Below, piece after piece: positions 5,246 to 26,530 of a DNA stretch of 29,697 nt. The DNA is taken from IMG/VR virus record IMGVR_UViG_3300036768_001053, positions 1-29,697 of that record; one strand, 5' to 3'. How positions within the stretch are numbered: the stretch's first letter is position 1; each line of letters starts with the position of its first letter. Made by a program: the position numbers and the translations under genes. The DNA is from a virus. A model generated the notes under the pieces. It was not told the DNA's origin and did not search any database. It saw only the letters and a program-made list of their open reading frames with translations.

Positions 5246-6396
5246 ACGTGAAAGAGATGCAGGAAAAGCGGTCGAAATTGCTGGCCGATGCCCGCGCGCT
5301 GTTGGATCGCGCCGAGCACGAGGGCCGCGACCTGACGCCGGAGGAAAGCCAGCAATTCGACCGGATGATGCAAGAGGCTGACGCGCTCGCCCAAGCGGTC
5401 GAGCGGCGTGCACAGCTGGAGCAGCGGGACGCTGTGAAGATCGTGAGCGTCGCCGGGGAATCTGCCGAAAAGCCGCAGGATGTCGAGTATCGCTCCGCAT
5501 TTCTGCGGTATTTGCGGTTCGATAAGCCTGCCTTGTCGCCTGAGGAGCTCCGCGCGCTCGGCGAGGGCAGCGGCGCCCAGGGCGGGTACCTCGTGCCGAC
5601 CTCGATGGCCCAGCAGATCGTGACCAAGCTGCACGAGGCCAACTTCATCAGGCGGCTCGCCACCGTCATCAAGACGGACAGCACCACCACGATCCCTGTG
5701 GAAGACACCGTTGCGGCGGCCGCGTGGACTGGCGAGTCCGGTGCGATCCCTGAAACCACCGCCACGTTCGCCCAAAAGCAGCTCGGCGCGTACAAGTTGA
5801 CGTGCTTGTTCAAGGTGTCCGAGGAGCTGCTACAGGACGCCGCGTTCGACCTGGAGGCCTACTTGGCCGGGCGGATTGCTGGGGCCTTCGCTGATGCCGA
5901 GATTGCGGCCTTCGTCAACGGTGACGGTAGCGGCAAGCCTGCCGGCATCGTTGGCGCTGCGGGCGTTGGCGTGACGGCGGCGAGCGCCACTGCGATCGCG
6001 GCTGACGAGCTGATTTCCCTCTTCTACGCGCTCGACCAGCAGTACCGCCAGAACGCTGTCTGGGTCATGCACCCCACCACCGCTGCGGCCGTGCGGAAAC
6101 TGAAGGCCACCACGAACGAGTATCTGTGGCAGCCTGGCCTCGCTGGCGGGCAGCCCGAGACGCTGCTCGGACTGCCGCTCTACACCACGGTGGCGATGCC
6201 GACCATCGGGGCTGGCAAGCGGTCGGTTTTGCTGGCCAACTTCGGCTACTACTGGGTCGGCGACCGCGGGCAGCGGCAGATGCAGCGTCTGAGCGAGCTC
6301 TACGCCGCCAACGGCCAGGTCGGGTTCAGGGCATGGGAGCGGGTCGACGGGGTGCTAACCCTGTCCGACGCCGCCAAGGTGCTCGTGCACCCCTAA
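5242..6396 (+). CDS. Major capsid protein, HK97 gp5 fold
   Basis: A 384-residue HK97-family capsid protein. Residues 1-75 are a helical, charged delta/scaffold domain expected to be removed by the protease encoded just upstream. The shell domain follows, with the family hallmarks GSGAQGGYLVPTSM, TIPVEDT, WTGESGAIPETTATF, LFKVSEELLQDA, FVNGDGSGKPAGI and GDRGQRQMQRLSE. ATG 5242 overlaps the protease stop (ATGA), and GGAGG lies 6 nt upstream. The cleavage site is not directly visible; it probably falls between residues 70 and 105. A strong hairpin lies immediately downstream. Confidence 0.96.
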   Translation: MNVKEMQEKRSKLLADARALLDRAEHEGRDLTPEESQQFDRMMQEADALAQAVERRAQLEQRDAVKIVSVAGESAEKPQDVEYRSAFLRYLRFDKPALSPEELRALGEGSGAQGGYLVPTSMAQQIVTKLHEANFIRRLATVIKTDSTTTIPVEDTVAAAAWTGESGAIPETTATFAQKQLGAYKLTCLFKVSEELLQDAAFDLEAYLAGRIAGAFADAEIAAFVNGDGSGKPAGIVGAAGVGVTAASATAIAADELISLFYALDQQYRQNAVWVMHPTTAAAVRKLKATTNEYLWQPGLAGGQPETLLGLPLYTTVAMPTIGAGKRSVLLANFGYYWVGDRGQRQMQRLSELYAANGQVGFRAWERVDGVLTLSDAAKVLVHP

Positions 6397-6453: not shown

Positions 6454-6633
6454 ATGGCAAAGACAAAGGTGCGGTTGCTGGTTGCTCTGGCGGGGCCGGC
6501 TGGAGCGTGGCAAGCTGGCGACACCTACGAATGCAGCGATGACGAGGCCGAGCGCCTCATTGAGCGCGGTTTTGCCGAGCCCGTTACCGCCCAAAAGGGC
6601 AGCGAAGATCACAAGAAAAAGGCCCGGCGATGA
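6454..6633 (+). CDS. Small conserved-type phage head protein (59 aa)
   Basis: This short gene begins at ATG 6454 with AGGAGG 6 nt upstream and ends in a TGA sharing ATGA with the next gene at 6630. The sequence begins MAKTKVRLLVALAG and contains AGDTYECSDDEAERLIERGFAEPV. That pattern (beta strands, a --PGD-- turn, then an acidic helix E-A--LI--G-AEPV) is common in small proteins encoded beside HK97-type capsid genes. Their role is unclear; a head-decoration or assembly function is often assumed. It has a Lys/Arg-rich tail. Confidence 0.8.
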   Translation: MAKTKVRLLVALAGPAGAWQAGDTYECSDDEAERLIERGFAEPVTAQKGSEDHKKKARR

Positions 6634-7226
6634 TCAAGGTGCGCGTCTCACAGCCGACGTCGGAGCCGATCACCATCGCAGATGCGAAGCTCTGGCTCCC
6701 TGGCGCTGATGACGCATGGCTGTCCGCGATGATCCCGATGGTGCGCGAAGTCGTGGAGCTCTGGACGTCTCGAGTTCTGGCACCGAGCACCTGGAAAGTG
6801 GCCTTCGACGCGGACGAGACCGCGAAGGTGATGCGCCTCCCGATCCGCCCGGTTTCGGCGATCACTTCCTGCGAGATTTACACGCCTGACGGGACGCAGG
6901 TCAGCCTCTCACCGGTCCCCCAGCACAGAATCGCCAGCGAATACGTGTTGCACTGGGCGCACGTCGAGGACATCACAACGCACGATCTTGATTCCGAGAA
7001 CGCTCTCGTGCTCACCGTCACCGCCGGCTACGCTTCACCGGCAGAAATCCCTTCGCTGTTGCGTATTGCGATGCGCGAGATCCTGGCCTACTGGTACCAG
7101 AACCGCGGCGAAGGATTCTCCCTCACGGGTGCGGTGCGCGAGGCTGGAGTAGGTTCCGCTACCGTGCCGCCACCTGTCCCGATTTGGGTCCGCCAGCGGC
7201 TGGCGGACATGGTGCACGCATGTTGA
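6630..7226 (+). CDS. Head-tail connector (gp6-like adaptor)
   Basis: The 198-residue protein matches the layout of HK97 gp6-like adaptor proteins, which form the ring below the portal. A helical N-terminus (ITIADAKLWLPGADDAWLSAMIPMVREVVELWTSR) leads to a beta-rich middle (RLPIRPVSAITSCEIYTPDG) and a C-terminal helix pair starting YASPAEIPSLLRIAMREILAYWYQNRGE. The gene follows the capsid region directly, which is the expected place. Start ATG 6630 overlaps the upstream stop, and the next start lies inside its last codons, so translation is probably coupled. Confidence 0.87.
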   Translation: MIKVRVSQPTSEPITIADAKLWLPGADDAWLSAMIPMVREVVELWTSRVLAPSTWKVAFDADETAKVMRLPIRPVSAITSCEIYTPDGTQVSLSPVPQHRIASEYVLHWAHVEDITTHDLDSENALVLTVTAGYASPAEIPSLLRIAMREILAYWYQNRGEGFSLTGAVREAGVGSATVPPPVPIWVRQRLADMVHAC

Positions 7227-9806: not shown

Positions 9807-10078
9807 CAGTGCCGTGGATGAGGGACGTGCTGCGAGCATGGAGCCTGGTGCAGGGACAGTGGCGGGTCGGCATGGCCGGCATCGTGAGCGGAGATTACGG
9901 CTCCTGGGCGGCCGTCCTGCGTCCCTACGGGCTTTGGCGGCGGCGGATCATCGAGGCTCTGCGCGTCTTCGAGGCTGAGGCCCTGCGCGAGGCGCGCGAG
10001 CGGGAGCGCGCCCAGCGCTACTACGGCGACGCCGACTACGCCGCGATGGTAGAGGAGGCAATCCGTGCCGAGAGCTGA
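9755..10078 (+). CDS. Tail assembly chaperone, frameshifted T-like extension (gpGT fusion)
   Basis: Read in the -1 frame from the slippery site, this segment adds 107 residues to the first 154 of the upstream gene, giving a 261-residue G-T fusion. The extension starts SVWAAFVIGG and continues MRDVLRAWSLVQGQWRVG, then a charged helix (EAEALREARERERAQRYYGD). In lambda-like phages the T part recruits the tail tube protein to the chaperone-coated tape measure. A GTG at 9809 (or ATG 9818) could start a separate 86-89 residue protein, but it has no ribosome site. The last codons overlap the tape measure start by 14 nt. Confidence 0.85.
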   Translation, partial: SVWAAFVIGGRGQQPRVAVPWMRDVLRAWSLVQGQWRVGMAGIVSGDYGSWAAVLRPYGLWRRRIIEALRVFEAEALREARERERAQRYYGDADYAAMVEEAIRAES

Positions 10079-13000
10079 CGCGATCATCGTTGCGCGGGCC
10101 GACGTCACAGGTGCCATCGAGGGCCTGCAGACGCTTTCCCAGCAGCTCGAGGCGACCGGGAAAACCGGCGACGTTGCCGCGCAGGAGTCCGCAAAGTTCG
10201 AGCGGCAGCTCTCGAATCTCCTACGCAGCCTCGACCCAGTCGGTGCCGCAACAGCGCGTTACGAGCGTCAGCAAGACCTTCTCCGGCAGGCCTACGAGCG
10301 CGGCAGATTGTCCGCAGAGCAGTACGCGGACGCGACAGCAAAGCTCAAAGCAAAATTTGAAGAAAAAATGGCTGCACTGCAGCGCGGGCCCCAGGTGTTT
10401 GACGCGCTGATTCAGCGTTACACCGGGCTTTCTCGCGAGGCGTTCACGGCTGTCGGGATCATCGGTGGGCTTGCGGCTGGTCTGACCTTTTCGGTCCGCG
10501 CCGCAGCTGAGGCCGAGGCCGCCGATAGAAGGCTTGAGGCGATGCTGCGCGCAACTGGAGGCGCGGCGGGCGTGACGAAGGCACAGCTCGACGCGCTCGC
10601 GACCGAGATCCAGCGCGCCACAGGGATGTCTGACGAGCACGTCAAGGCGGCCGAGGCCATCCTGCTTACGTATCGCAGCGTGAATGCCGAGGTATTCCCC
10701 AAGGCAATCAGACTTGCCGCAGACCTCGCAGCGGTGATGGGGACGGATCTCCAGACGGCTGTGCGCCAGGTCGGCATGGCGCTCGAGGATCCGATCGGAG
10801 GCATGGACCGGCTGCGCCGCGCTGGCGTAGTCCTCGATGAGCAGACGCGGGCCTATATCCAAACGCTCGTGGACGCTGGCAAGCAGGAAGAAGCTCAGCG
10901 CGTGCTTCTGGAGCAGCTCGAAATTCGCGTCGGCGGCGTGGCGAAGGCGGTCGGAAGCGGACTCACTGGGCAGCTCAATGCGGCAAAACAGGCGTTCGGC
11001 GACCTGGCTGAGTACGTCGGCGGTACTGTGCTCCCGCTGCTGACAAGTATCGCCACCGGATTCAACAACGTTCTCTCTGGAATCAACGAACTGATTGGCC
11101 AGACGAAAGAGCGAGGGTTGAAGGGCCTTGTAGACACGTTCGGCGACCTCGCTGTCGGCCTTGGCCTCGCCAAAGCTGAGGATGTAAACGCCGGGGCTGC
11201 GATGCTCGGGCTCAAGGATAGCACCGAGAAGGCGCGCATCCAGGTGAAGACGCTCCAGGAGGCCGTGAAGGGCATTACGCCCGATGTCGTAGCCTGGAAA
11301 GAGGAGACAAAGAAGGCTGGAGACGAACAGGCGCGCCTCAAGGTGCTCAACGAGCAGCTGAAGAGCGTCACGGACGAGCTGAAGATCGCCCAGCAGGAGC
11401 ACCGCGACCTCGTGCAGGATCTGGTGAAGGCAGGCGCTGATCACTACACCGTGATCCAGATGACACTGCCGGAGCTGGAGCAGTACTGGCAGAAGTGGCA
11501 GAACGTAGACCTCGTGTTGCGCAATCTACCTGACGACGTGAATGCGGTGATCCAGGCCTGGCCGAGCGTAGACGAGATCGAGCGCGTTTTCCCGATCCCG
11601 AAACCACCAGAAGAGCAGTGGTGGAAGGACAAGTGGTCAGCAAAGGGGCGCGAGGCTATCTCTGCATTCTCCGAGTCGTTCGGAGCTGGGTTCTTCGCGT
11701 TCCTGTCAGGTGATGATTTCCGGAGTGCATTTTCCCAGGTCTGGGGCACGCTCGCCAACATTGCCCAGGGCATTCTCGGGAATACTTTCCAACAGATCTT
11801 CTCGGGCCAGGGGAGCTTCATGAAGCGCCTGCAGGAGAGCGGCTGGGTCTCTCCCGGCGGAGCGGTCAACTGGCAGCAGGTCGGCATGGTTGGCGGCACC
11901 ATGCTGTGGGGCTACGGTGCGTCCCAGGGGAACAGGGGTATGGGCGCGGCCGGTGGAGCGATTGCGGGTGCCTCGATGGGAATGACGTTCGGGCCGTGGG
12001 GCGCGGTGATCGGGGCAATTATCGGTGGAATCATCGGGTATTTCACAAGTGGGGCAAAAACCTACGGGTACAACATCGCACTCGACAGGTACGGCCGCGG
12101 TATCGTTGACATTACAGGGGTCAGTCAGCCCGAGGAAGACGAGCGCCTGCGTCAGCTGCGTGATGTAGCGCGCCAGTATTTTTCGGGATTTCGGGCGCTG
12201 CTGGAGCTTCTTCGGCAGCCGTTGCCTGACACTTCGCAGTGGAAATTCGAGGCGCATGGGCAGGCAGGCGACACCGCTGGCATGTGGCAGCGCATCATCT
12301 CTGGCGATCTGCCTCGCTCGATTTTTGCCCTGTACAGGCCAGCGATCGAGGCCGGGCTTGGGCAGCTGGGTGTGGCCCAGGAGCGCATCGCTGAGCTGAT
12401 GGGGCAGTTCCAGACTGGGCAATTTTCGGAGGCCTTGTCCGAGCTGACGGACTACGTGCGGGCCCTAATGAGGCTCCGAGATCTCCATGCCGAGCTGGGT
12501 AAGTCGCTCGAGCAGCTGCGCAGTGAATGGCAGCAAACCGTCGAGGAGAGGTTGCGCCAGGGCACCATGGACACGCTGCAGGCGATCCAAGAGGGGATCG
12601 CCGCGATGCAGCAGATGACCTCCCCTGAACAGGTCCAGCGTGCCAACCAGCTCGCTGATGCCATCGAGCGGCAGGGGCAAGCGCTGGCGCAGTACATCCA
12701 GGCAATCTTCGCCGAACAGACGCGTGCGCAACAGCAAGTGGAAGGGCTGCGCGCATCGTGGGAGGAGCAGCGCGCCAGGGAGCAGGGTGCCGGCGCGCTT
12801 GCCGACTATTACCAGCAGCGGTACTCGCAGCTGGTGCAGCAGCTGTCCGGTGCAACGAGTCTCGAGCAGGCGCAATTCCTCTGGCAGCAGGTGCTCCAAG
12901 TCCTGCAGGGTGGCTGGCAAGTCGGCGGCCAACCTGGCATGGAGTACATGCGGCAATGGGCCGAGCATGCGCTTGGGCCGGCCGAAGCGATGTACCATGA

Positions 13001-13337
13001 GCTGCTCGGGCGGTTCGCCGAGCAGGCGCAGGCCCAGCGCAAGCAGCTGCAGGACGCCCTCGGCCAGGTCCAGGCCGTGCTCACGTCCGAAACGTCCGTT
13101 CATCATGACCTGACTGCGGCGCTCGAAAGCGAGCAGGACGCGCGCCGCGAGGTGCTTGAGACCATGCGCGAGGAGGGGCGTATGCGGCGCGAAGCGCTAG
13201 GCGACCTCGGGGCACTCGCCGTGGCGGCTGCGTCGGCTGCTGCCGCTGCGTCGGCTGCTGCCGCTGCGCTGGATGCGCTCCGCGTAGCCAGCGAGGCGCT
13301 GCCGGCGCCGGTACCGGCTACGAGGACGACGTCATGA
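10065..13337 (+). CDS. Tape measure protein
   Basis: At 1090 residues this is the longest gene. Start is GTG 10065 with AGAGGAGG 6 nt upstream. The N-terminal half has coiled-coil helices followed by a lambda H/TMP_2-like domain (TGMSDEHVKAAEAILLTYRSV, VMGTDLQTAVRQVGMALEDP). A glycine-rich hydrophobic region at about residues 603-665 (GAAGGAIAGASMGMTFGPWGAVIGAIIGG split by short links) probably enters the host membrane. The C-terminal third is coiled coil and ends with an alanine-rich helix. The protein sets tail length: at about 1.5 angstrom per residue the tail would be roughly 150-160 nm. An 18-bp tandem repeat lies near the 3' end. Confidence 0.93.
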   Translation: MPRADAIIVARADVTGAIEGLQTLSQQLEATGKTGDVAAQESAKFERQLSNLLRSLDPVGAATARYERQQDLLRQAYERGRLSAEQYADATAKLKAKFEEKMAALQRGPQVFDALIQRYTGLSREAFTAVGIIGGLAAGLTFSVRAAAEAEAADRRLEAMLRATGGAAGVTKAQLDALATEIQRATGMSDEHVKAAEAILLTYRSVNAEVFPKAIRLAADLAAVMGTDLQTAVRQVGMALEDPIGGMDRLRRAGVVLDEQTRAYIQTLVDAGKQEEAQRVLLEQLEIRVGGVAKAVGSGLTGQLNAAKQAFGDLAEYVGGTVLPLLTSIATGFNNVLSGINELIGQTKERGLKGLVDTFGDLAVGLGLAKAEDVNAGAAMLGLKDSTEKARIQVKTLQEAVKGITPDVVAWKEETKKAGDEQARLKVLNEQLKSVTDELKIAQQEHRDLVQDLVKAGADHYTVIQMTLPELEQYWQKWQNVDLVLRNLPDDVNAVIQAWPSVDEIERVFPIPKPPEEQWWKDKWSAKGREAISAFSESFGAGFFAFLSGDDFRSAFSQVWGTLANIAQGILGNTFQQIFSGQGSFMKRLQESGWVSPGGAVNWQQVGMVGGTMLWGYGASQGNRGMGAAGGAIAGASMGMTFGPWGAVIGAIIGGIIGYFTSGAKTYGYNIALDRYGRGIVDITGVSQPEEDERLRQLRDVARQYFSGFRALLELLRQPLPDTSQWKFEAHGQAGDTAGMWQRIISGDLPRSIFALYRPAIEAGLGQLGVAQERIAELMGQFQTGQFSEALSELTDYVRALMRLRDLHAELGKSLEQLRSEWQQTVEERLRQGTMDTLQAIQEGIAAMQQMTSPEQVQRANQLADAIERQGQALAQYIQAIFAEQTRAQQQVEGLRASWEEQRAREQGAGALADYYQQRYSQLVQQLSGATSLEQAQFLWQQVLQVLQGGWQVGGQPGMEYMRQWAEHALGPAEAMYHELLGRFAEQAQAQRKQLQDALGQVQAVLTSETSVHHDLTAALESEQDARREVLETMREEGRMRREALGDLGALAVAAASAAAAASAAAAALDALRVASEALPAPVPATRTTS
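13227..13262. repeat. 18-bp perfect tandem repeat in the tape measure gene
   Basis: Two adjacent copies of an 18-bp unit (gctgcgtcggctgctgcc) at 13227-13244 and 13245-13262, with six further matching bases after them. They code for Ala/Ser repeats (AASAAA) in the C-terminal helix. The in-frame length means slippage would lengthen or shorten the helix by six residues without breaking the gene. Confidence 0.85.
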
Positions 13338-14617
13338 GCAACTGGAGTCTGCCAGGATATGTCCTTGACGTGGCATTCGCCACTAACACTGGGTTCGGTG
13401 CGACCACGCGGCCGGGCGGGCAGCAGCTTACGCTGTACTGGTACTACGCCGATGATTCTGGCGGCTATGAGGTCAGGCAGGTCCCCGAGGGCATGGTAGA
13501 AGTTGGCGACGTGGACACCGCGGACGGCTACGTGACCGTGCAAGTTGCCGACCCTGGCGCGAGCCTGCTGTCGGCCGCCGGAGCGCAGGCTCACGTCATC
13601 ATGACGCTGCGGTCACCTGGGGGTGCAGAGGAGAAGGTGAACTGGCACATGATGGTTGCCGACGTGCGCTGGGCGCGAGACATGGCGACAGTCACGCTGC
13701 ATCCATTTCGCTTCAGCTCGCTGAAGGGGCCAGGTCATGTCGGCAGGATGCTGCTGGAGCGCTGCAACTGGACCTTCGGCGGGCTGCAGTGCCTAACATC
13801 CGATTCGTCCGGATGTGACAAGACGCTGGCAACCTGCAAGACCAAGAAGCGCAACCGGTTGGCGGACGATAACACCGCCAGCATCGAAACCTCGGCTGCC
13901 GGCTGGGAGGCGTTGGGCGGAGCGACGGTCAGTCGCGTAACTGGCGTCGCGTACCACGGGTCGGCGAGCCTGCAGGTGGTCACGACCGGCGCGACCCAGG
14001 GAACGAGGACCTCGGCGAGCGGGCGAGCATCGAACCCAAACGGAGGCGGTGAGTGGACTGGGTCAATCTACCTCCGCGCGGCTTCTGGCAGCCCAGTGGT
14101 GCGCGTGCGCCTTGAGTGGTTCGACGCGGCTGGGAACTCCCTCGGGCTTTCCACGCAGTACACCGACGCGACCTTGAGCGCGGCCTGGCAGCGCGTTTCA
14201 GTGACGGCGAGCGCGCCGGCGGACTGCCGGGCGGTGGCCATCCGCATCCTGCAGCAGTCCACCTCGGGCGCTACGTGGTATCTTGATGCGGCGATGCTTG
14301 AGACGACTTTCAGCTATCTGCAACAGCTGCCTTCGCCATGGTGCCTGCCGTCCGACGGGAATGCGCTGCGCTTCGGCGGGTTCCCAACCGCACCAAGGAC
14401 TGGGCAGGTGTTGAGGTGGTTGCAGTCAGTACAGTCGCCGGCATACGTGGTGGCACCTGCGCCGCGGCCTGACGTCCCGGCGAACCCTCCGGCACCACCT
14501 CCGCCGACGCCTGGTGGTGGTGGAGATCGGGAACCGCGTCGGCACCTCCAGCCCGGTCCACCGAGCCCGCCTAAGTCCCTGCCGTTTTTGCCAGGCGTGC
14601 CTGAGGAGGTGGCATGA
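13334..14617 (+). CDS. Tail-tip protein, lambda L / BR0599 (DUF2163)-like, with an inserted beta-sandwich
   Basis: The 427-residue protein starts with a beta-rich domain (residues 1-140). It then has the four-cysteine motif of L-like tail-tip proteins, C144-x8-C153-x7-C161-x6-C168 around CDKTLATC, which in lambda gpL holds an iron-sulfur cluster. The RFGGFP motif that normally follows within a few residues is found only at 346-351. The intervening ~150 residues (175-325) look like a carbohydrate-binding (CBM4_9-like) jelly roll: ETSAAGWEALGGATVSR, GSASLQVVTTG, WTGSIYLRAASG, WQRVSVTASAP and WYLDAAMLE. A proline-rich tail ends the protein. It overlaps the tape measure gene (ATGA) and the next gene by 4 nt. 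Confidence 0.82.
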   Translation: MSNWSLPGYVLDVAFATNTGFGATTRPGGQQLTLYWYYADDSGGYEVRQVPEGMVEVGDVDTADGYVTVQVADPGASLLSAAGAQAHVIMTLRSPGGAEEKVNWHMMVADVRWARDMATVTLHPFRFSSLKGPGHVGRMLLERCNWTFGGLQCLTSDSSGCDKTLATCKTKKRNRLADDNTASIETSAAGWEALGGATVSRVTGVAYHGSASLQVVTTGATQGTRTSASGRASNPNGGGEWTGSIYLRAASGSPVVRVRLEWFDAAGNSLGLSTQYTDATLSAAWQRVSVTASAPADCRAVAIRILQQSTSGATWYLDAAMLETTFSYLQQLPSPWCLPSDGNALRFGGFPTAPRTGQVLRWLQSVQSPAYVVAPAPRPDVPANPPAPPPPTPGGGGDREPRRHLQPGPPSPPKSLPFLPGVPEEVA

Positions 14618-15699
14618 CCCTAGTGAGGTACCCATACCCGTCTGTCGACGGCACCTCGCGCAGCGAGGACTGGCACCCGATTGAGCTGCGCTCCATCTCC
14701 GGTGCGCTGTCCCAGGCGGTCGGCACCAGAAGCACGCCATACCACAGGCTAAGACTCACCTTCCGCAACCTCGCGACCTCCGAGCTCGCCGACCTGCTGC
14801 GAACCATCCGCTCAGGGTCCGGACCGGTGTCGCGTTGGCACATCTGGACCCCCTTCCCCGAGCCCTGGGTTTTGGCGGTCGGGTCAGGCGACGGAGCGAC
14901 GCGGGTCTGGGCCGTCCCCCTCCGGGAGATTGTCGGCACGCCGACCGTGCTGGTTGGCGGAGCAGCGGTGACCGCCTGGCTCGGCGCCGAGAACATACTG
15001 AAGAATTCAGAGGACCTGTCGCAGGCGTCAGTGTGGCAGGCTGTGGGCGGCGCGACCGTTACGCGAACCTCCGGGCGCACGGACCCGCTGGGAGGCACGA
15101 CGGCTTGGAGGATTCAGACCTCCGGCGGAAGCTACGCCGAGAAGCTAGCGCAGATTCGCACGGACATCCCTACAACTACCAGCTCGAAGTGGGGCGTCAG
15201 CTGCTGGGTCAAGAACAACGGTAGCAGAACTGTCCGGGTAGGAATCAGATATCACGGCGACCCAGGGACATACGTAGACGTGCCAGGAGGCGCTGGCTGG
15301 ACTGAGGTCAGGGCTGCCGGGTCGCCGACCATTGCATACTACCTGGGCATCGAGTTTCGGGCGCTGAGCGTGTCGGACTCCTTGGACTTTGACGTATGGC
15401 ACCCGGTCGCGGCGATGTGGCGCAGCCCATGGGATGCGGTCACCTCGCCAGAGCACATGGCGGAGGTTGGGTACGTCCTGACCGGAGTAAACCCGGCCCC
15501 GGTTGACTCGCTCGGCCGGGCGTATCTCACGCTCGCCGCCGCACCAGCGAGCGGTGCCGCGATCGAGCTGCGGGCGGTGGCGAAGCGGCTGCTCTGGGGG
15601 CGCTTTGGCCCGGCCACAGAAGTGGTCTCGGAAACGCCTGGCCGGGTGTCCTGCGCGCTGTCGTTCGAAGGTGAAGAGGCGACTGGGACGGAGTCATGA
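14614..15699 (+). CDS. Distal tail / tail-tip protein (DUF2460-like) with an inserted beta-sandwich
   Basis: In the 361-residue protein, residues 1-122 and 272-361 together resemble DUF2460/Dit-type tail proteins. They contain RLRLTFRNLATSELADLLRTI, a GSGDGATRVWAVPLREI stretch ending in VLVGGAAV, then LTLAAAPASGAAIELRA near the end and a final LSFEGEE. Residues 126-270 interrupt this and look like a second carbohydrate-binding jelly roll: ENILKNSEDLSQASVWQ, GGATVTRTSG, GTTAWRIQTSGG, KWGVSCWVKNNGS and DSLDFDVWHPVAAMW. The N-L--SEDl---W opening is common in phage receptor-binding modules. The family assignment is moderate; the insertion is clearer. Confidence 0.72.
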   Translation: MTLVRYPYPSVDGTSRSEDWHPIELRSISGALSQAVGTRSTPYHRLRLTFRNLATSELADLLRTIRSGSGPVSRWHIWTPFPEPWVLAVGSGDGATRVWAVPLREIVGTPTVLVGGAAVTAWLGAENILKNSEDLSQASVWQAVGGATVTRTSGRTDPLGGTTAWRIQTSGGSYAEKLAQIRTDIPTTTSSKWGVSCWVKNNGSRTVRVGIRYHGDPGTYVDVPGGAGWTEVRAAGSPTIAYYLGIEFRALSVSDSLDFDVWHPVAAMWRSPWDAVTSPEHMAEVGYVLTGVNPAPVDSLGRAYLTLAAAPASGAAIELRAVAKRLLWGRFGPATEVVSETPGRVSCALSFEGEEATGTES

Positions 15700-17396
15700 G
15701 CGAGCTGCCGTACGGGTCGGACGTCAGGACCGTGGAGCTGCGCACCGGCCAAAGCCCCATCGGCGGGGCGTGGCCAATCGTGTACGGCCGCTGCAAGGTG
15801 GAGTTGCCTATAGTCCACTTGCACCTAGCGAGCGCTGGGCAGCTTGAATGCATAGCAGTGGTATCGCTCGGCGAGATTGACGCCATCGAAAAGGTGTACG
15901 TGGGCGAGACGGAGGTCTATCCTTCCGTGCAAGGCTGGTGCCAGGCGGAGGTGCGCACCGGTTCGCTGTGGCAGTCGCCTCCCACCATCCTGCGCCATAC
16001 AGCGGCAAAAAGTACCCTGCCAGGCGTGGCATACGTTGCCCTCTCGATGGACCTGTCCCTCGCCCCGGTGGCCGGTATGCCTCAGGTGACCGCAGTGGTG
16101 CGAGGAAGAAAGGTCGGCAGCGGTGGGTCTTACACCACGAACCCAATCTGGTTCATCAAGGACCTGCTGGAGAACACCGATTACGGCGCTGGTATCGTGC
16201 TGCACCCGCCACCGGGAAAGACGTTCGACGACTTGGCTGCGGCCATCACCGCGCCTGCCTGGTGGGTCTGGAGCACGCGGGAGCCGATGGTTCCCTGGCC
16301 AGAGCGCCTTCGCGCTCTGCTGTCGGCGATTGGTGGGCGCCTGTACTGGATTGGTGAATGGCGCCTCGTGCTGGATTCGCAGGCGCAGAATGTTGGCACC
16401 GTCTCGTACGATGGGCCCATCCGCCTGCTGGATGAGCCTGCCGTCGAAAGCTCGCTTTTCCGGGCGCCAAACCGGGTAACTGGTACGTGGCTTGACCCGA
16501 GCACCTGGACACAGAAGCAGCTGGCTCTCGAGCGCGCCGAAGTTGCCACTGGGCAGGAGGCACCGCGGGAGCTGCACCTCGGCCTCTTGCCGCTCGTCAA
16601 CTACCAGGACTGCATGCGGCTGTTGGCCACGGCGCTCAACCGGGCGCGGAGGGCCGCCGTGACCTGGGCTCTGCTAACTGACGGAACGGGCGAGGCCGCC
16701 CTCCCCGGCACTCGTGTCACATTGCAGCACCCGCGCCTCGGCACGCGCGAGATGCTCGTCATCGGCCACGAAATCACGGGCTGGAAGCGCAAGCTGGTAT
16801 GCGTTGAGTGGTCTGCGAGTGACTGGGACGCTGGTACCTACCCGGACCCGCAGGACCCGGCAGGCACTACAGCGTCAGCTACCGAGGTCGTGTTGCTGGC
16901 GGATGAGTTCACCGGGGGAGGCGACGGCGCGAACGACGGGATTCTTGGGGAGCTCGGGTGGCATTACACCGGCACGGCGGTGGCGTCGTATACATCGGAG
17001 ACAGGGCACCCTGGTGTCGTTAGCTTCGCCTACGGCGGCAGCGCCCAACTCCAGAGCGTGAGTCTCCAGGGCGGAGCCGACTGGAGCGCCCGGGCTAAGA
17101 TCAAACTCAACGGGGCATTTCCCTCGGCTATCACCATGGGTGTGGAAGTGGCAATGGCGAGCGGCGGCGCTCTTTCGATAGGCGGCGAGACAGTGGCAAC
17201 CGGAGCACCAAACGGGTGGTACGACATAACTTGGCTGTCTGGCCCGTCTGGGGTGCTTGTCACCGTGGTCGGACCTACCGGCACTGTGTATCAGCGCACG
17301 AAGCAGGTAACATCGGCTACGCCTGCTTTTGAGCCGAGTGTCAGCGGCTCGGTTGTGTACGTGGATTACGTTCAAATCGCAGTCGGGAGGGCATGA
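15696..17396 (+). CDS. Tail-tip hub/receptor protein, lambda J-like (Phage_tail_3), with C-terminal beta-sandwich
   Basis: In the 566-residue protein, residues 1-390 resemble the hub of J-like central tail proteins. It opens GQSPIGGAWPIVYGRCKV, carries NPIWFIKDLLENTDYGAGI (the usual NPa-i--dlLtn--yG-gi motif), PWPERLRALLSAIGGRLYW, and NRVTGTWLDPSTW. From about residue 396 it changes to a lectin-like module (LLADEFTGGGDG, HPGVVSFAYGGSAQL, WSARAKIKLNG, GWYDITWLSGPSG, YVDYVQIAVG). The hub should form the tail tip and the C-terminal module a receptor contact. It overlaps its neighbours by 4 nt and 1 nt. It is half the size of lambda J. Confidence 0.82.
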   Translation: MSELPYGSDVRTVELRTGQSPIGGAWPIVYGRCKVELPIVHLHLASAGQLECIAVVSLGEIDAIEKVYVGETEVYPSVQGWCQAEVRTGSLWQSPPTILRHTAAKSTLPGVAYVALSMDLSLAPVAGMPQVTAVVRGRKVGSGGSYTTNPIWFIKDLLENTDYGAGIVLHPPPGKTFDDLAAAITAPAWWVWSTREPMVPWPERLRALLSAIGGRLYWIGEWRLVLDSQAQNVGTVSYDGPIRLLDEPAVESSLFRAPNRVTGTWLDPSTWTQKQLALERAEVATGQEAPRELHLGLLPLVNYQDCMRLLATALNRARRAAVTWALLTDGTGEAALPGTRVTLQHPRLGTREMLVIGHEITGWKRKLVCVEWSASDWDAGTYPDPQDPAGTTASATEVVLLADEFTGGGDGANDGILGELGWHYTGTAVASYTSETGHPGVVSFAYGGSAQLQSVSLQGGADWSARAKIKLNGAFPSAITMGVEVAMASGGALSIGGETVATGAPNGWYDITWLSGPSGVLVTVVGPTGTVYQRTKQVTSATPAFEPSVSGSVVYVDYVQIAVGRA

Positions 17397-17659
17397 TGCC
17401 GCTGGAGCAAACGGTCTGGTGGATGGTCACGACGGCTGTCGCGGTGCTCGCAACCATCGCCCTGGCGCTGGCGCGGCGGCAGCTGTCAGTGATTGACGAC
17501 TCGCTCCGGTCGCTGAGGGCGGAACTGGCCGAGCAGCGTGCGGAGCTGGCCGCGCTGCGGCGCGAGGTTGCGGAGGTGACTCGCGAACACGAGGGGCGCA
17601 TCGCAAGGCTCGAGGCCAGGGCCAACGGCCGCGGGGTATTCCCCCCGCCTGGGGTGTGA
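17396..17659 (+). CDS. Membrane-anchored coiled-coil protein, likely lysis-related
   Basis: The 87-residue protein has one membrane segment near the N-terminus (WWMVTTAVAVLATIALALA, residues 9-27). A heptad-rich coiled coil follows (LRSLRAELAEQRAELAALRREVAEVTREHEGRIARLEAR, about 37-75), then a short Gly/Pro tail. This plan fits XhlA-type holin partners or Rz-like spanin subunits. Its position just before the endolysin favours a lysis role. Two ATGs lie at 17393 and 17396. The second has GGAGG 5 nt upstream and is preferred; it overlaps the previous stop as TGATG. Confidence 0.72.
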   Translation: MPLEQTVWWMVTTAVAVLATIALALARRQLSVIDDSLRSLRAELAEQRAELAALRREVAEVTREHEGRIARLEARANGRGVFPPPGV

Positions 17660-17660
17660 C

Positions 17661-18140
17661 ATGCTGCCGCACCACCTGGCTATCGCGGAGTGCGTTGTGG
17701 CCGCAGCGCGCCACCTGTGGCCCCGCCCATGGGGCAGTCGGCCCGCGGTGCGGATGTTGTTGGCCATCGCGCTCCAGGAGTCGAATCTCGCAAACCGGAG
17801 GCAGCAACCGGCTGGCCCGGCGCGGACGTACTGGCAGCTCGAACCACAAACCGTCCAAGCCGTGCTGGCGCACCCGGTGGTCGGCCCAGTGGTCACCTCG
17901 GTGCTGCGCCAGTTGGGCGTGGTGGACCCGTGGCATCCAGACGTTGACATCATGGCCGCGGCTACCGTGGCCCGGGGCCTGTTGCGCACATCGCCTCGGC
18001 CTCTCCCGATGACGGAGCCCGAGGCCTGGGAGGAGTACACTAGGACCTGGCGGCCTGGGAAGCCCGCCCCCGAACGCTGGGCCCAGAACTGGGCGCTGGC
18101 CGGCGAGCTAACTGCAGCCGCCTGGAGGGAGGAACCATGA
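17661..18140 (+). CDS. Putative endolysin, lytic transglycosylase-like
   Basis: The 159-residue protein contains MLLAIALQESNLANRRQ and then PAGPARTYWQLEP. This arrangement matches lysozyme-like transglycosylases (catalytic Glu in a QES motif, here E40, followed by GpA-g-WQ-e). The C-terminal part has WEEYTRTWRPGKPAPERW, a signature of a family of short phage lysis-region proteins in Gram-negative phages. It should cut murein between the sugars. No signal peptide is visible, so a holin is needed. It starts 1 nt after the previous stop with only a weak ribosome site. The family link rests on motifs alone. Confidence 0.7.
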   Translation: MLPHHLAIAECVVAAARHLWPRPWGSRPAVRMLLAIALQESNLANRRQQPAGPARTYWQLEPQTVQAVLAHPVVGPVVTSVLRQLGVVDPWHPDVDIMAAATVARGLLRTSPRPLPMTEPEAWEEYTRTWRPGKPAPERWAQNWALAGELTAAAWREEP

Positions 18141-18664
18141 AGCGAGTGGTCACTGTCCTGTTGGTGCTGTTGGCCGCGGCCCCTGCCGTGGCCGGCTGGC
18201 TCGTTGACGAGTCGGCCCTGGTCTGCTATGGGCCGGTGGCGGGTCCACCTGGCATCGGCCTCGGCGGGCTCAAGTACGCCGACGGCTGCCCTGCTGGCTA
18301 CACGCAGGCGCAGTTACCGCAGGCGCCAAGGCCTTGGTGGCAGGCGCTGCTGGAGCAGCTGGACACCTGGTTCGGCCTCTCACAGCGGGTAGTCTGGGTG
18401 CCGACCGCCAAGCAGTTGGCCGCCCTCACCTTGCTGATTGCCATCCTCCGCAACGGGCTCGGGCTGTCCCGCTGGATCAATGGGCCCTGGACGCTGCTGC
18501 TGAGCGCGGCGCTCGCGGTCGCGCTCTACGTCCAAAGTGCGGTGGCCGACGGGTCGCTCACTCTCATGGAGGCCATTCTGGCGGTTGTCAGCACGGTCGC
18601 CGGCTCCGCTGGCCTGTGGGAGGGCCTGAAGCACCTCGTGCGGCACCGCCTCGAGCACGGATAG
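18137..18664 (+). CDS. Membrane protein of the lysis region, possible holin
   Basis: The 175-residue protein begins with a clear signal sequence or first membrane segment (MKRVVTVLLVLLAAAPAVAG). It has a ~75-residue external-type region with two cysteines (LVCYGP, DGCPAGY) and then three hydrophobic stretches (QLAALTLLIAILRNGL, WTLLLSAALAVALYVQ, ILAVVSTVAGSAGLW) ending in a basic tail HLVRHRLEHG. Three C-terminal membrane segments plus a charged tail suit a holin, but the long exported domain is unusual. The gene overlaps the endolysin stop (ATGA) and ends the late operon. Confidence 0.65.
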   Translation: MKRVVTVLLVLLAAAPAVAGWLVDESALVCYGPVAGPPGIGLGGLKYADGCPAGYTQAQLPQAPRPWWQALLEQLDTWFGLSQRVVWVPTAKQLAALTLLIAILRNGLGLSRWINGPWTLLLSAALAVALYVQSAVADGSLTLMEAILAVVSTVAGSAGLWEGLKHLVRHRLEHG

Positions 18665-18890: not shown

Positions 18891-19235
18891 TCACCCGCGG
18901 AGGTGGAGGAATGCGGCCACCTTGAGAGGGTGGCGCTCGAGGTACCACTCCACTGTCCGGGTGTAGACCCGCCGCCGGCGTCCCAGCATGACGAGCACCC
19001 GGAGCGTCGGCCACCGGGAGCCGCGCGCCACCGGGCAGCCGGTGAGCACGACCGGCACACCACGTCCCAGAGCCTCCAGCGCATCCTGCGGCAGGGCGGC
19101 CCGCGGCACCTGGTGCTTCGCCATCGGCGAGTCAGGTCCGCGGGAGAATGCGATAGACGGGGGGCAGGGCAGCACCATCACTGCCAAAGCCGCCCCGGCC
19201 CCCCACTCGCAGGCGACTTTCTCAGCTGTCTTCAT
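18891..19235 (-). CDS. Protein of unknown function, last gene of the leftward operon (114 aa)
   Basis: I do not recognise this protein. It starts MKTAEKVACEWGAGAALAVM and contains PCPPSIAFSRGPD, PVVLTGCPVARGSRWPTLRV and VYTRTVEWYLERHP. It overlaps the upstream leftward gene by 14 nt, the same overlap size seen in the packaging genes, which supports it as real. There is no strong ribosome site, so translation is probably coupled. It has three cysteines and many Arg residues. The alternative that it is a chance frame in GC-rich DNA cannot be excluded. Confidence 0.6.
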   Translation of the reverse strand: MKTAEKVACEWGAGAALAVMVLPCPPSIAFSRGPDSPMAKHQVPRAALPQDALEALGRGVPVVLTGCPVARGSRWPTLRVLVMLGRRRRVYTRTVEWYLERHPLKVAAFLHLRG

Positions 19236-19758
19236 AGCTCAGCCCATCGCTTAGCGCCTCGAGCCGCAGACGATCCAGGCGCCCGAGGCAGATCGTCGGC
19301 TTCTCCGATTTGCGCCGCCTTGACCAGAGGTGAAGATACACCAGCGGCTTCGGGAACTCGTCGAGGAGTGCCGCGGCCTCAGGTGTCAGGCTGGCCCTAA
19401 GTGCGTTCCTCTTCGCGATCGCAACTTCTGTCTCGAGGTCGCCTATGGGCCAGCACGCAAGCGTCATCTGTCCCTCCGCCCAGTGCCGGAGAACCGTCCA
19501 CCCCTGGTTGACCTCTTCCGCCGTTCCGTTGACAACGACTGCGAAGGATAGTTGGTACCCTTCGAACACCCGGAGCCTGCGAAACCGGCAGACGAATCGC
19601 AGCTGGTTGCCGGTGCCTGTGGCAGCGGGGTAAACGAAGCCCCACGCGCCAACTTCGTCTCCAATGGCGCGGGCGATTCTCGGTAAAATGCCAGGCGCTT
19701 TTGCGGCAATTTTCGCGGCCAGCAATGAGGCCTCCCATACGTTTTCCGGCCATTTCAT
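19222..19758 (-). CDS. Protein of unknown function, middle gene of the leftward operon (178 aa)
   Basis: No family recognised. The chosen start is the ATG at 19758 (minus strand), with GGAGG 8 nt upstream. Frames extending further upstream lack a ribosome site. The N-terminus is a helix (VWEASLLAAKIAAKAPGILPRIARAIG). A beta-rich core follows (NQLRFVCRFRRLRVFEGYQLSFAVVV, TLACWPIGD), then a helical C-terminus with LTPEAAALLDEFPK and a basic RRRKSEK loop. Mixed alpha/beta, soluble, with no signal peptide or catalytic motif seen. Downstream it overlaps the 114-residue gene by 14 nt. Confidence 0.75.
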   Translation of the reverse strand: MKWPENVWEASLLAAKIAAKAPGILPRIARAIGDEVGAWGFVYPAATGTGNQLRFVCRFRRLRVFEGYQLSFAVVVNGTAEEVNQGWTVLRHWAEGQMTLACWPIGDLETEVAIAKRNALRASLTPEAAALLDEFPKPLVYLHLWSRRRKSEKPTICLGRLDRLRLEALSDGLSYEDS

Positions 19759-19857
19759 TGTCCTGCCCTCCATGCCCCGTTTACCCCCGGGGCGAGGGCC
19801 CAGTGCCGGCTTCGCCTGCCGCCGCGGCCACCCCGGCATGGCAACCGCGGGGGAAAG

Positions 19858-19877
19858 GGGCGCGCCTAAGCGCGCCC
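19858..19877 (-). terminator. Stem-loop between the first and second leftward genes
   Basis: GGGCGCGC (19858-19865) pairs with GCGCGCCC (19870-19877) around a 4-nt loop, touching the stop codon of the 281-residue gene. On the minus strand a short CTTT follows. It could act as a partial terminator that lowers expression of the two downstream genes. The 118-nt gap up to the next gene start has no other recognisable element. Confidence 0.5.
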
Positions 19878-20722
19878 TATCCCTCGATCACGTAGCTCTT
19901 CCAGGCCCGGCGGAGCGCAGGCTGCCGGAGCTCTGCGCCTTCCGGCACCTCGAGCTCGAACCAGACGACAACGGACGGCGCCACCGCCGGGTGCTTGGCG
20001 AAGCTGGCGGCTCCGGCGACCTGGGCGGCCGCCCACCAGAACTCGTTCGGCTCGATGGCGGCCGGCCCAGGGGGCAGCGGCACCACCAGGCCAACCACCT
20101 GGCCACCAGCCACCACCTCCAGCGGGGCGGAATAATCGGCAGCCCCCCGCCTCGGCCGGATCTCCACGGTTACCACGGTGGACGGCCCGGCGGCATGCGG
20201 GAGCTTCTCCGCCAGCAGGAGCAGGTTGCGCTCGGCGGCGGGGTGCGGCTCTGGCGCCGCGGCTTGCCCGGCTGCCTGGGGCTCACCGCCGCCGCCGAGG
20301 AGCGTGCGGATCTTTTCCTCGGCGGCGTCCCACGCCGCCGCCACCTCCGGGTCCATGGCCCGGAGGAGCTCCCGGGCCCCCTCGGCCGGCACCCCCAGCG
20401 TGCTGGCGAGGAGGGCCTCCCACTCGGCCCAGGAGGCCGGAATGGGCCCCCGCTTCCCGATGGCCGACCAGAGCCCCTCGGGGAAGTCCCCGGTGTCCCA
20501 GCCGTAATGGCCGGACACTGGGAGGACGCCGTCGGCCAGCGCGAGGCGCCAGACGGTGGCGGTCCACTTCCCCTTCCTGGGGCCAAGCTGGCGCGCCCTG
20601 ACGACACACCAGCCGGGGATGTCACGGCCATTGAACGGCCGGGCCTCCCCGGCGCGGAAGAACACCAGCCAGGCCGCGCGCGAGCGCGGCGCAAGCTGTT
20701 CCGTCCACGTGAACTCCATCAT
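19877..20722 (-). CDS. Protein of unknown function, first gene of the leftward operon (~281 aa)
   Basis: No family recognised. It starts at minus-strand ATG 20722 (or the adjacent ATG 20719) with GGGAGG 4-7 nt upstream. Two parts are visible. Residues 1-160 are tryptophan-rich (FTWTEQLAPRSRAAWLVFF, NGRDIPGWCVVRARQLG, KWTATVWRLALADG, GHYGWDTGDFPEGLW). Residues 190-281 have beta strands (STVVTVEIRPRR, PLEVVAGGQVVGLVVPL, SVVVWFELEVPEG). A low-complexity Gly/Ala/Pro/Glu linker joins them. The gene is even more GC-rich than the late genes by eye. It is driven by the promoter at 20838-20866. Being the promoter-proximal gene of an isolated opposite-strand operon suggests an accessory (anti-defence, exclusion or regulatory) role, which is an inference only. 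Confidence 0.75.
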   Translation of the reverse strand: MMEFTWTEQLAPRSRAAWLVFFRAGEARPFNGRDIPGWCVVRARQLGPRKGKWTATVWRLALADGVLPVSGHYGWDTGDFPEGLWSAIGKRGPIPASWAEWEALLASTLGVPAEGARELLRAMDPEVAAAWDAAEEKIRTLLGGGGEPQAAGQAAAPEPHPAAERNLLLLAEKLPHAAGPSTVVTVEIRPRRGAADYSAPLEVVAGGQVVGLVVPLPPGPAAIEPNEFWWAAAQVAGAASFAKHPAVAPSVVVWFELEVPEGAELRQPALRRAWKSYVIEG

Positions 20723-20734
20723 GGCTCCTCCCTT

Positions 20735-20756
20735 CCCCGGCTTTACGGCTCCGGGG
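20735..20756 (-). promoter_or_regulatory. Inverted repeat in the leader of the leftward operon
   Basis: CCCCGG (20735-20740) and CCGGGG (20751-20756) flank a 10-nt centre. The repeat sits a few bases upstream of the ribosome site of the first leftward gene, so in RNA it could form a small hairpin influencing translation, or in DNA be an operator. The evidence is only the symmetry and position. Confidence 0.35.
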
Positions 20757-20837
20757 TAGCCGTCCTGCCGGCCTCGGTTCGAGCCACCCACCACCCAGGC
20801 TTGGCGGCGGGGGGTGCTTTCTCACCACCCGGCTCCC

Positions 20838-23057: not shown

Positions 23058-24524
23058 GTGTACGCGAAGATCTTCGACACCATCCTTCGCAGCTCGATCT
23101 GGGTCAACCACCCGCCCCACGTGCGTGTTGCCTGGATCGGGCTGCTGCTGCTCGCGAGGCCGGGGAGACTTCCGGACGGGCGCAGGGTCGGCATCGTGCA
23201 GGGGACGCGAGCAGGGCTCGCGAGGGCGCTCTCCCTCGAGCTGGAGCAGTTCGAGGAGGCCTTGGAGGTCCTGATGGCGCCGGACCCGGACTCCACCTCG
23301 ACCGAGTTCGAGGGAAGGAGGATCATCGAGCTGAAGCCGAACCGGTGGGCCGTGGTGAACTACTCCCGCTACCAGCGGATGCGTGACGAGGACAACCGGC
23401 GGATCCAGTCCCGCGAGCTCATGCGCGAGCTTCGCGAGGCGAGGAGGGGTGGCGGTGCTGCTGCTGGTTCGGGCAGCTCCTGGAGAAGCGCAGATGTGGG
23501 GACAAGGTTAGATGGGTCAACGACTTCAGCCAGAAATGCTAACAATGCTAACAGTGCTAACACTTGGCTCGCGAATGACCTAAAGCTAGCCGAGTCAACA
23601 ACTTCAGCCAGATGTGCTAACAATGCTAACATTGCTAACGCAGACGGCGGAAAAAGGCTAAGTGTAGACAGGTCACTAAGTTCAGCCAGAAATGCTAACA
23701 ATGCTAACAATGCTAACATCGGTAGCAGTGCTAACAAGGTGGCGGGTGACCGAAACCCGGACGCTGAGAGTGCCATTTTGGCACGCTCGGGAGGCTCGGC
23801 TGGTGCCATTTTGGCACCTCCAGCCGGCTCGAAAGGCGCTGGACCCGAGTTTTCCACAGGTTTTCCACAGGACACGGTCCTGAATGAGCAAGTCGTTGAC
23901 TGCGTAGGGGATGTTCCGACTTTTTCCACAGCTTTTCCACAGGTTTTCCACAGCTTTTCCACAACTTTTCCACAGCCTCCGAACTCGCCAGCATCGAGCA
24001 GACCGGCCCGGTTGCACAAAAACGAGTGCAGCGCCTACTACTACGATAAAGAGAGTACAGAGATCTCTCAGGAGTCTATAGTCGTGGGGGATATGGAGGA
24101 TAGGGGGGGATGCAAGGGGGGGAAAGGGGGAAAAGGGGTAGTCACATATCCTGCATCTCAGCCGAAGCACACGAAGCCCAAGAGGTCGACCGCCTCCTCG
24201 ATCTGGGTGCTGCAGCCGGGCGAGGAGCCCGTCATGAACTTCCCGTGCGAAGGAGAGGCCGACACCTGGGCCCTTTCCCCTTCAGGTTTTCGCTGGCTCC
24301 AGGAGCACTACCGCACCGTGGACGTTGAGGCGGAGCTCAGGTCCGCAAAGGCGTGGTTAGTAGGCAACCCTGGCCGGCTCAAGACCGCGCGCGGGATGCC
24401 GCGGTTCCTGGTCAACTGGATGGAGAAGGCTGCCCGCGACAGGCGCGGCTACCGGCGCCAGCCTGACCTGCTCGCGGGCGTGGAGGACCTGCTCAAGGGG
24501 GCAGGGGAAGGAGGTGACGAGTGA
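23058..24524 (+). CDS. Replication initiator (lambda O-like) carrying an internal origin
   Basis: The 488-residue protein starts at GTG 23058 with GGAGG 6 nt upstream. Residues 1-110 look like a winged-helix initiator domain (MYAKIFDTILRSSIWVNHPPHVRVAWIG split over two helices, IIELKPNRWAVVNYSRYQ). The C-terminal 90 residues (SGFRWLQEHYRTV, AKAWLVGNPGRLKTARGMPRFLVNWMEKA) match the end of many phage primosomal/replication proteins that contact the helicase. Between them (about 150-370) is low-complexity sequence: three NANNAN-type repeats spaced by 26 residues, FSTxFPQ repeats, and a GGKGGKG stretch. This part appears shaped by DNA-level origin elements. As in lambda O, the protein probably binds iterons within its own gene. 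Confidence 0.85.
   Translation: MYAKIFDTILRSSIWVNHPPHVRVAWIGLLLLARPGRLPDGRRVGIVQGTRAGLARALSLELEQFEEALEVLMAPDPDSTSTEFEGRRIIELKPNRWAVVNYSRYQRMRDEDNRRIQSRELMRELREARRGGGAAAGSGSSWRSADVGTRLDGSTTSARNANNANSANTWLANDLKLAESTTSARCANNANIANADGGKRLSVDRSLSSARNANNANNANIGSSANKVAGDRNPDAESAILARSGGSAGAILAPPAGSKGAGPEFSTGFPQDTVLNEQVVDCVGDVPTFSTAFPQVFHSFSTTFPQPPNSPASSRPARLHKNECSAYYYDKESTEISQESIVVGDMEDRGGCKGGKGGKGVVTYPASQPKHTKPKRSTASSIWVLQPGEEPVMNFPCEGEADTWALSPSGFRWLQEHYRTVDVEAELRSAKAWLVGNPGRLKTARGMPRFLVNWMEKAARDRRGYRRQPDLLAGVEDLLKGAGEGGDE
23516..23749. repeat. Three 78-bp direct repeats, each with an iteron triplet
   Basis: The marker GTCAAC/GTCAC begins at 23516, 23594 and 23672, exactly 78 bp apart. TTCAGCCAGA follows each, then three iterons with the core GCTAAC at 9-bp spacing. 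The core positions are 23538, 23547, 23556; 23616, 23625, 23634; 23694, 23703, 23712; and a tenth at 23730. Consensus of the 9-bp unit is AATGCTAAC. Both periods are multiples of three, so the repeats preserve the reading frame and code for NAN tripeptides. The third unit diverges after its iterons. Confidence 0.95.
23770..23817. repeat. Two identical 15-bp palindromes 33 bp apart
   Basis: GTGCCATTTTGGCAC occurs at 23770-23784 and 23803-23817. Each is a 6-bp inverted repeat around TTT; the second has one extra flanking G-C pair. The spacing of 33 bp is close to three helical turns, so both sites face the same side of the DNA. They lie between the iterons and the DnaA-like boxes and look like binding sites for a dimeric protein, perhaps the helix-turn-helix protein encoded at 21037 or a host factor. 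Confidence 0.88.
23850..23974 (+). repeat. Seven DnaA-box-like TTTTCCACA sites at 11-bp spacing
   Basis: TTTTCCACA starts at 23850 and 23861, and again at 23922, 23933, 23944, 23955 and 23966. All have the same orientation, and every neighbour within a group is exactly 11 bp away. The sequence fits the broad DnaA consensus TTWTNCACA. Since 11 is not a multiple of 3, each copy is read in a different codon phase, so the repetition is maintained for the DNA and not the protein. It probably loads host DnaA cooperatively. Confidence 0.9.
24103..24138 (+). other. G-quadruplex motif next to the origin
   Basis: Runs of 7, 7, 5 and 4 G are separated by loops of 6, 3 (AAA) and 4 (AAAA) nt, with a further G5 at 24086-24090. 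This fulfils the strict four-tract quadruplex pattern on the plus strand. It encodes a Gly/Lys-rich linker (GCKGGKGGKG) in the initiator. Being just beyond the DnaA-like boxes it may influence unwinding, primer synthesis or fork stalling. Confidence 0.75.
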
Positions 24525-25030
24525 CGTTCGAGGAGTTCCGGTCGTGGTTCGGCGAATACTGCCAGCTCAGCCCGCGAACGCCAGCCTGGATGCGAGAGGC
24601 AGCGCAGCGGGCAAGCGAGGCCGGCGTAGCGCTCACGCCGGACCAGGTGGTGCGAGGCTGGTACCGCTCGCTCGAGCGGCGGCCGGCATGGGCCGTCCGC
24701 AAGGCCACCACGCGCCTCGCCGAGTCCGGGGCGCTGTCACGGCTGCACCCCGAGCAGCACCTTGGCGCCATCATCTCGGAGGCGGTCGAGATCGAGCGGA
24801 ACGAGGGGTTCGGCCGTGCTGACAACCCGGGGTGGGACGAGTACTCCTGCGACATCTGCGGCGGGGTCGGGATGGTGGTGATCGAGACGCCCTACCCGGA
24901 CGGGCGGCCGCACGAATCCACGGTTGCCTGCATCTGCGAGCGCGGAGCGCGGCCACCAGTTCGCGGGATGCGAAGGCTTCGGCCTGGCGACGTGTTTGCT
25001 GGGACCGGGGGAAGGAGGTTCGAGGGATGA
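24521..25030 (+). CDS. Replication-region protein with a zinc-binding motif (169 aa)
   Basis: This gene follows the initiator with a 4-nt overlap (GTG 24521, GGAGG 6 nt upstream), the place of a helicase-loader gene in lambda-like phages. The N-terminal half is helical (MTFEEFRSWFGEYCQLSP, LTPDQVVRGWYRSLERRPAWAV). The second half has CDICGGVGMVVIETPYPDG and then ACICERG, a CxxC...CxC arrangement likely to bind zinc. No P-loop is present, so it is not a DnaC-type ATPase. A helicase-loading adaptor or primosome link with the RepA-like protein is plausible, but I recognise no family. Confidence 0.7.
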   Translation: MTFEEFRSWFGEYCQLSPRTPAWMREAAQRASEAGVALTPDQVVRGWYRSLERRPAWAVRKATTRLAESGALSRLHPEQHLGAIISEAVEIERNEGFGRADNPGWDEYSCDICGGVGMVVIETPYPDGRPHESTVACICERGARPPVRGMRRLRPGDVFAGTGGRRFEG

Positions 25031-25254: not shown

Positions 25255-25280
25255 TGTTGGACGCACCGGAAGGAGGAGCC

Positions 25281-26527: not shown

Positions 26528-26530
26528 ATC

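Follow-up and report, generated by a model that had tools for sequence, protein, structure and literature searches.

The 29,697-base window that we analysed, IMG/VR record IMGVR_UViG_3300036768_001053 of a small bacterial virus, encodes what we read, with moderate confidence, as the host-adhesion tip of a lambda/GTA-type siphophage apparently without a fibre gene, in which a J-like protein is the main receptor binder and two neighbouring proteins are accessory glycan binders. By computation, an L-like four-cysteine hub (L) bears a CBM4/22-like module and a Dit-like protein (D) a second, homologous one. The short J-like protein (J) consists of the hub only, with the long central fibre absent, and ends in a ConA-like module.

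The window begins and ends with an exact 88-base direct repeat (1-88, 100% identical to 29610-29697), and the genome is therefore probably complete. The late operon follows the siphophage order of terminase, portal, protease, major capsid protein, adaptor, tail proteins, tape measure, L, D and J, with three small genes after J. The tape measure protein (1090 aa, 10065-13337, plus strand) was recognised by PF06791 (E 3.9e-11) and by PHROG tape-measure families. Overlaps of four bases (ATGA) chain its gene to L, D, J and a membrane/coiled-coil protein directly 3' of J (88 aa, 17393-17659, plus strand), which by its overlap belongs to the same transcript and is 92% identical in the relative L003. 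The place where a fibre gene would sit is taken by a 159-aa protein (17661-18140, plus strand) that matches phrog_3108 (E 2.1e-25), looks lysozyme-like by eye and has a homologue at the equivalent place in a second relative, L079. When all 33 gene models were run against PHROGs, the gene spanning the record ends being entered as two pieces, none apart from J and the L module matched a fibre family, and no fibre-like gene was found between J and the lysis-type genes of either the window or L079. Because many of the genes have no family match at all, the absence of a fibre is probable, short of proof. The sequence-only reading had stated that the genome holds no fibre gene, and this stands as far as the terminal repeat and the 33 PHROG comparisons can test it.

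The genome is otherwise plus-strand except for a minus-strand gene pair (205 and 305 aa) at 19222-20794, a region whose DNA similarity to the contig IMGVR_UViG_3300036768_000752 (G001) is inverted and occurs at more than one place, which suggests a moved or repeated element. The 305-aa product was considered as a fibre and rejected, with nothing fibre-like in its sequence and no PHROG match. Two in-gene repeat arrays (23504-23736 and 23850-23975) lie in a 488-aa replication-type gene; their units contain TGCTAACA and TTTTCCACAG, respectively, and the TTTTCCACAG type resembles origin-type repeats.

L (427 aa, 13334-14617, plus strand, as are its parts) comprises an attachment and ion-binding part (aa 1-176, 13334-13861) with cysteines C144, C153, C161 and C168, a CBM4/22-like module (aa 177-328, 13862-14317) and a proline/glycine-rich C-terminal tail containing PRRHL (aa 374-427, 14453-14614), which is 48.6% identical to that of L003 over 35 of its 54 residues. 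The four cysteines are invariant across six aligned hubs (window, L003, L079, L006, L008 and L087), and the module-free hub of L087 matches lambda gpL (E 3.7e-4). On the window protein, the family profiles TIGR02218 (11.3 of 80.5) and PF09356 (16.2 of 22.9) stayed below cut-off, each with a weak match at 159-175, and the hub is therefore named gpL-like from its cysteine motif and the relative L087. The module exceeds the curated 36-bit cut-off of NCBIfam NF048003, a phage head spike fibre domain that takes its name from the corresponding GTA structure, in the window (43.2), L003 (47.8) and L079 (46.3). A three-row profile of the module was searched against the PDB, and seven of its nine matches were carbohydrate-binding modules of xylanases (E 0.007-0.088), of which 4xuo and 4xup are CBM22 by their structure titles; the others we take to be CBM22 as well. 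From NF048003 and these xylanase modules we infer a beta sandwich. Pfam CBM_4_9 (PF02018, gathering cut-off 25.9) fell short in all cases, scoring 12.7 on the whole window protein and 16.1 on its module, 20.2 for L003 and 25.7 for L079, hence our label of CBM4/22-like rather than assignment to a filed family. The module also gave one weak match to the tail fiber family phrog_12940 (E 7.7e-4). A PDB sequence search with the whole L alignment returned nothing credible, tblastn of L (E<=1) gave 25 weakly matching records, mostly minor tail proteins of actinophages and all below 60% identity, and an IMG/VR pattern scan for the module recovered the close relative only.

The PRRH[LI] motif of the L tail (aa 401-405, 14534-14548) occurs twice more in the window, in an 87-aa membrane-type protein (27531-27794). 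The three copies among the 33 gene models (9210 aa) compare with 0.0155 expected, and none of 2000 shuffles reached three, a post hoc statistic as the motif was chosen after being seen. G001 and L079 carry variants in their L tails, L006 and L008 at the N terminus of J, and G001 6572-6865 is also concerned. It is tempting to speculate that a motif found in a hub tail, in a small membrane protein and, in other phages, at the J N terminus might reflect a common partner or a superinfection decoy.

D, a DUF2460-like protein of 361 aa (14614-15699, plus strand), was assigned from its position and from a match to the distal tail protein family phrog_1302; as that match reaches only E 0.075, the Dit identity of the scaffold is tentative, and the scaffold without its module had zero Pfam matches. 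The module itself (aa 123-272, 14980-15429, plus strand) is recognised as a CBM-like insertion by the contrast in identity with its scaffold described below, by its predicted fold and by its kinship to the L module. The AlphaFold model of D is poor overall (pLDDT 40), with block values of 40-75 over residues 141-270, and residues 131-265 align with the jelly rolls of CBM4, CBM22, CBM61 and CBM11 (Z up to 9.9), the CBM4 structure 1GUI being among them (Z 7.9). The D module of L003 passes NF048003 (42.4 against the cut-off of 36 bits); the D proteins of the window, L006, L008 and L079 gave no match to it. PDB sequence searches with the D module profile and the whole D alignment found nothing credible, tblastn of D (E<=1) gave two weak records below 60% identity, and the IMG/VR pattern scan for the module recovered only the close relative, L006 and L008. 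In bacterial genomes, the 57 pattern matches included no relative. In another phage, L101, the Dit position is occupied by a 355-aa protein (4796-5863) whose C-terminal half looks LamG/ConA-like by eye; it had zero Pfam matches.

J (566 aa, 15696-17396, plus strand) matches phrog_31, central tail fiber J (E 4.1e-12), and T5 pb3 by profile (E 1.3e-4). Its predicted model has a pLDDT of 54 overall, with blocks of 74-90 over residues 461-540 and 31-45 over 401-460, and in the structure searches no weight was given to absent PDB matches over low-confidence parts. Among the 50 fold matches listed, seven are J-like hubs of phages and GTA, and on these the hub part (aa 1-385, 15696-16850, plus strand) aligns best with T5 pb3 (Z 11.8), followed by GTA (9.8), R4C (9.5) and lambda J (8.9). 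The other 43 are confined to residues 417-566, and most of them are galectins, ConA-like lectins or enzyme domains with the ConA-like fold. The C-terminal module (aa 396-566, 16881-17393, plus strand) is all beta over 397-563 in the model, and its residues 436-566 align with ConA-like lectins and galectins at Z of about 8.6-9.5; the module also matches the fold of 5ly8, the evolved Dit from phage J-1 (Z 8.8). The J homologue of L079 passes PF13550 (31.9 of 23) and reaches 22.5 bits over about 105 profile positions of the GTA megatron profile NF048004 (cut-off 800 bits), to which window J gave no match. When viral models were searched with J in Foldseek, most of the entries listed were tip protein J and related proteins, at low TM-scores. 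With tblastn against 50,697 phage records, J had zero matches at E<=1e-5 and one chance-level match at E 2; the PDB sequence search with the module profile found nothing credible and the IMG/VR pattern scan for the module only the close relative.

The three modules are of two kinds. Comparison of the L and D module profiles with hhalign gave a probability of 90.6% (P 1.3e-6), falling to 16.9% with fewer sequences, and their pairwise local score of 90 was reached by none of 2000 shuffles (maximum 80). Judged by their sequences, the L and D modules are homologous and form one CBM4/22-like family. The J module gave nothing by profile against either, and 173 and 753 of 2000 shuffles reached its pairwise scores with L and D, respectively; it is a separate ConA-like fold unrelated by sequence to the other two, and the idea that all three are duplicates of one another was dropped for this reason. 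The sequence-only reading had placed a different beta-sandwich decoration on each of three neighbouring tip proteins. Its anatomy was accurate: limits drawn from the relatives (L 177-328, D 123-272, J 396-566) agree almost exactly with its values for L (175-325) and D (126-270) and are identical for J. Sandwich folds are supported by predicted models for D and J and probable for L from sequence matches. The word different, however, applies to the J module only.

The relatives indicate how the modules came to be where they are. In three of the six aligned hubs (window, L003 and L079) the L module follows the fourth cysteine; in L006, L008 and L087 that cysteine leads straight into an F-x-GF motif with no module between. 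The D modules of L006 and L008 are 77.3% identical to that of the window, whereas the scaffold before the module is 26-28% and its last part 22-24% identical, with intermediate values (47-53%) over the 34 residues that follow the module. Module and scaffold of D therefore have different histories. On these alignments the L and D modules are insertions, and the D module resembles a cassette exchanged among viruses that are otherwise unrelated. The tip as a whole would also be mobile. The three-module tip recurs in L003 and L079, and our comparisons draw on three related tips, two of them close. L079, located in a MAG labelled Hydrogenophaga, keeps all three modules at 42, 37 and 44% identity for L, D and J, with a tape measure 49% identical to that of the window; of 399 genomes sampled within the order to which this MAG belongs, three matched a profile of J, and the match ran the full length only in the L079 genome itself. 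The host assignment, with Comamonadaceae as a first guess, is weak because it rests on this one MAG contig. G001 shares the tip-to-lysis cassette (window 13313-18651, G001 23070-28423) at about 83% DNA identity over 13313-14482 and 14628-18651. At the protein level its tape measure agrees with that of the window at 34%; no DNA match to the window begins before base 11930, and the head genes show none. With the cassette shared with G001 and the full layout found in L079, the three-module layout is common to three phages of differing backbone, and from this distribution we infer that recombination transfers modules, as well as the entire L-D-J-to-lysis cassette, from one phage backbone to another.

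The modules have diverged unequally. Between the window and L003, the L module is 87.5% identical and its attachment part 91.5%, the D module 88.0% and its two scaffold parts 84.4 and 89.9%, and the J module 66.9% and its hub 91.9%; no segment of this pair has a dN/dS above 0.29. Against L079 the corresponding values are 49.7% and 35.5% for L, 38.1% against 36.4 and 36.0% for D, and 26.9% against 51.5% for J. The D modules of L006 and L008 are 80.4% identical, with 96.4 and 86.0% in the scaffold. The J module alone is the faster part in all comparisons made of its protein; D differs between pairs. The L module, more conserved than its own scaffold in the L079 comparison, counts against a general reading in which decorations evolve fast. 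The unequal divergence points to a division of labour, with J carrying the main specificity module.

By analogy with RcGTA and R4C, the tip would be built on a Dit hexamer, a hub trimer and a J trimer, and would therefore display some six modules of D and three each of L and J. Being C-terminal and fastest diverging, the J module would be the putative main host-specific receptor binder; J is the best candidate for this role because its ConA-like module stands where lambda J continues into the central fibre. The L and D modules may serve as accessory glycan binders and keep the particle within the surface polysaccharide, a role that experiments on Dit insertions in skunaviruses support. The sequence-only reading had proposed a multivalent decorated tip in place of a fibre, with recognition spread over three ring layers. 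The decorated, fibreless tip fits the anatomy and its recurrence in L003 and L079, but an even spread does not fit the unequal divergence and the common family of the L and D modules. Equal sharing by three rings with three different ligand specificities would account for three modules on three proteins, all kept in both relatives, and for the missing fibre gene; given that L and D carry one family and only the J module diverges fast, we consider it unlikely. A fibre or tailspike could instead be hidden among the family-less genes, or the record could lack a gene, the modules being mere accessories as in R4C. Many small genes do lack a PHROG match, and RcGTA and R4C combine fibres with decorations; the terminal repeat, the J-to-lysis stretch without a fibre-like gene here and in L079, and a J so short that it seems to lack a fibre-binding domain make this quite unlikely.

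Two further alternatives concern what the modules do. Instead of a lectin, the J module might be a depolymerase, an enzyme with the ConA-like fold: the best non-hub fold matches listed include an alginate lyase (Z 9.5) and glycosidase domains of ConA-like fold. Many pure lectins and galectins appear among the same matches, however, and the model is of low confidence, so that an enzyme is very improbable. The L and D modules could also be structural, stiffening ring contacts instead of binding glycans, a role that the conservation of the L module relative to its scaffold against L079 would fit. Insert-free hubs exist and the D module occurs in unlike scaffolds, and therefore no fixed ring contact is needed; we regard a purely structural role as scarcely probable. 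Our preferred reading of a fibreless tip led by J can be extended into a fuller one: adhesion by about twelve lectin-like ring domains (six on Dit, three on the hub, three on J), with conserved generalist CBMs on L and D and a fast-evolving lectin on J, the modules and the tip-plus-lysis cassette being swapped between unrelated backbones. Taken as a whole, this extension is tentative and somewhat doubtful.

As a small and testable example of host recognition without a fibre, the window has three removable domains in a 29.7-kb genome, and the natural module-free hubs provide controls for the decorated one. One carbohydrate-binding-type module is found in two unlike Dit scaffolds, and two phages of different backbone share the whole tip cassette. 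Exchange of modules and cassettes bears on how phages change surface specificity while the rest of the virion stays the same. Among the titles and abstract openings of the open-access literature, we found neither this phage nor a fibreless tip bearing the same set of modules described.

Decorated tips as such are already known. RcGTA has an oligosaccharide-binding domain on its hub, an insertion domain on its Dit and a J-like megatron, with 21 oligosaccharide-binding sites counted in the tail, and its head fibres enable capsule attachment (PMC7296036). In roseophage vB_DshS-R4C, Dit, hub and megatron all bear carbohydrate-binding accessories, of which one is CBM11-like, and the authors suggest that the hub domain was gained by horizontal transfer (PMC10276861). 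Both particles are described with six Dit, three hub and three megatron copies (PMC7296036, PMC10276861). The window resembles RcGTA in its decorated hub and Dit combined with a J-like protein, but RcGTA possesses tail fibres, its megatron is 1304 aa long, its hub domain sits inside the ion-binding domain (168-249) rather than after the fourth cysteine, and its hub and Dit domains are described as LKA1- and T5-like, whereas those of the window are CBM4/22-like (PMC7296036). R4C possesses nine fibre proteins, and its 1447-aa megatron includes a fibre-binding domain (PMC10276861); in the window J has 566 aa and no fibre gene was found. Evolved Dits and Tals of Gram-positive phages hold carbohydrate-binding modules inserted in Dit and sometimes in Tal, and the BppA module resembles the CBM4 structure 1GUI (PMC7291167). 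An evolved Dit put into skunaviruses restored infection of polysaccharide-coated cells (PMC10688798). Such phages differ from the window in usually having a separate receptor-binding protein and a Tal without a lambda-type iron-sulfur hub (PMC7291167, PMC10688798). The hub of Alishewanella phage LSH1 is, like window J, a short J-like protein leading directly into a C-terminal receptor-binding domain; unlike the window, LSH1 is described as joining gpL- and gpJ-like parts in one chain, lacking the iron-sulfur cysteines and possessing a side fibre (PMC13243795). RcGTA and R4C thus already provide examples of hub, Dit and J-like protein decorated with carbohydrate-binding domains, and the evolved Dits examples of Dit insertions. 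The tip described here differs from these decorated tips in its apparent lack of a fibre gene, in its short J and in the portable module of D.
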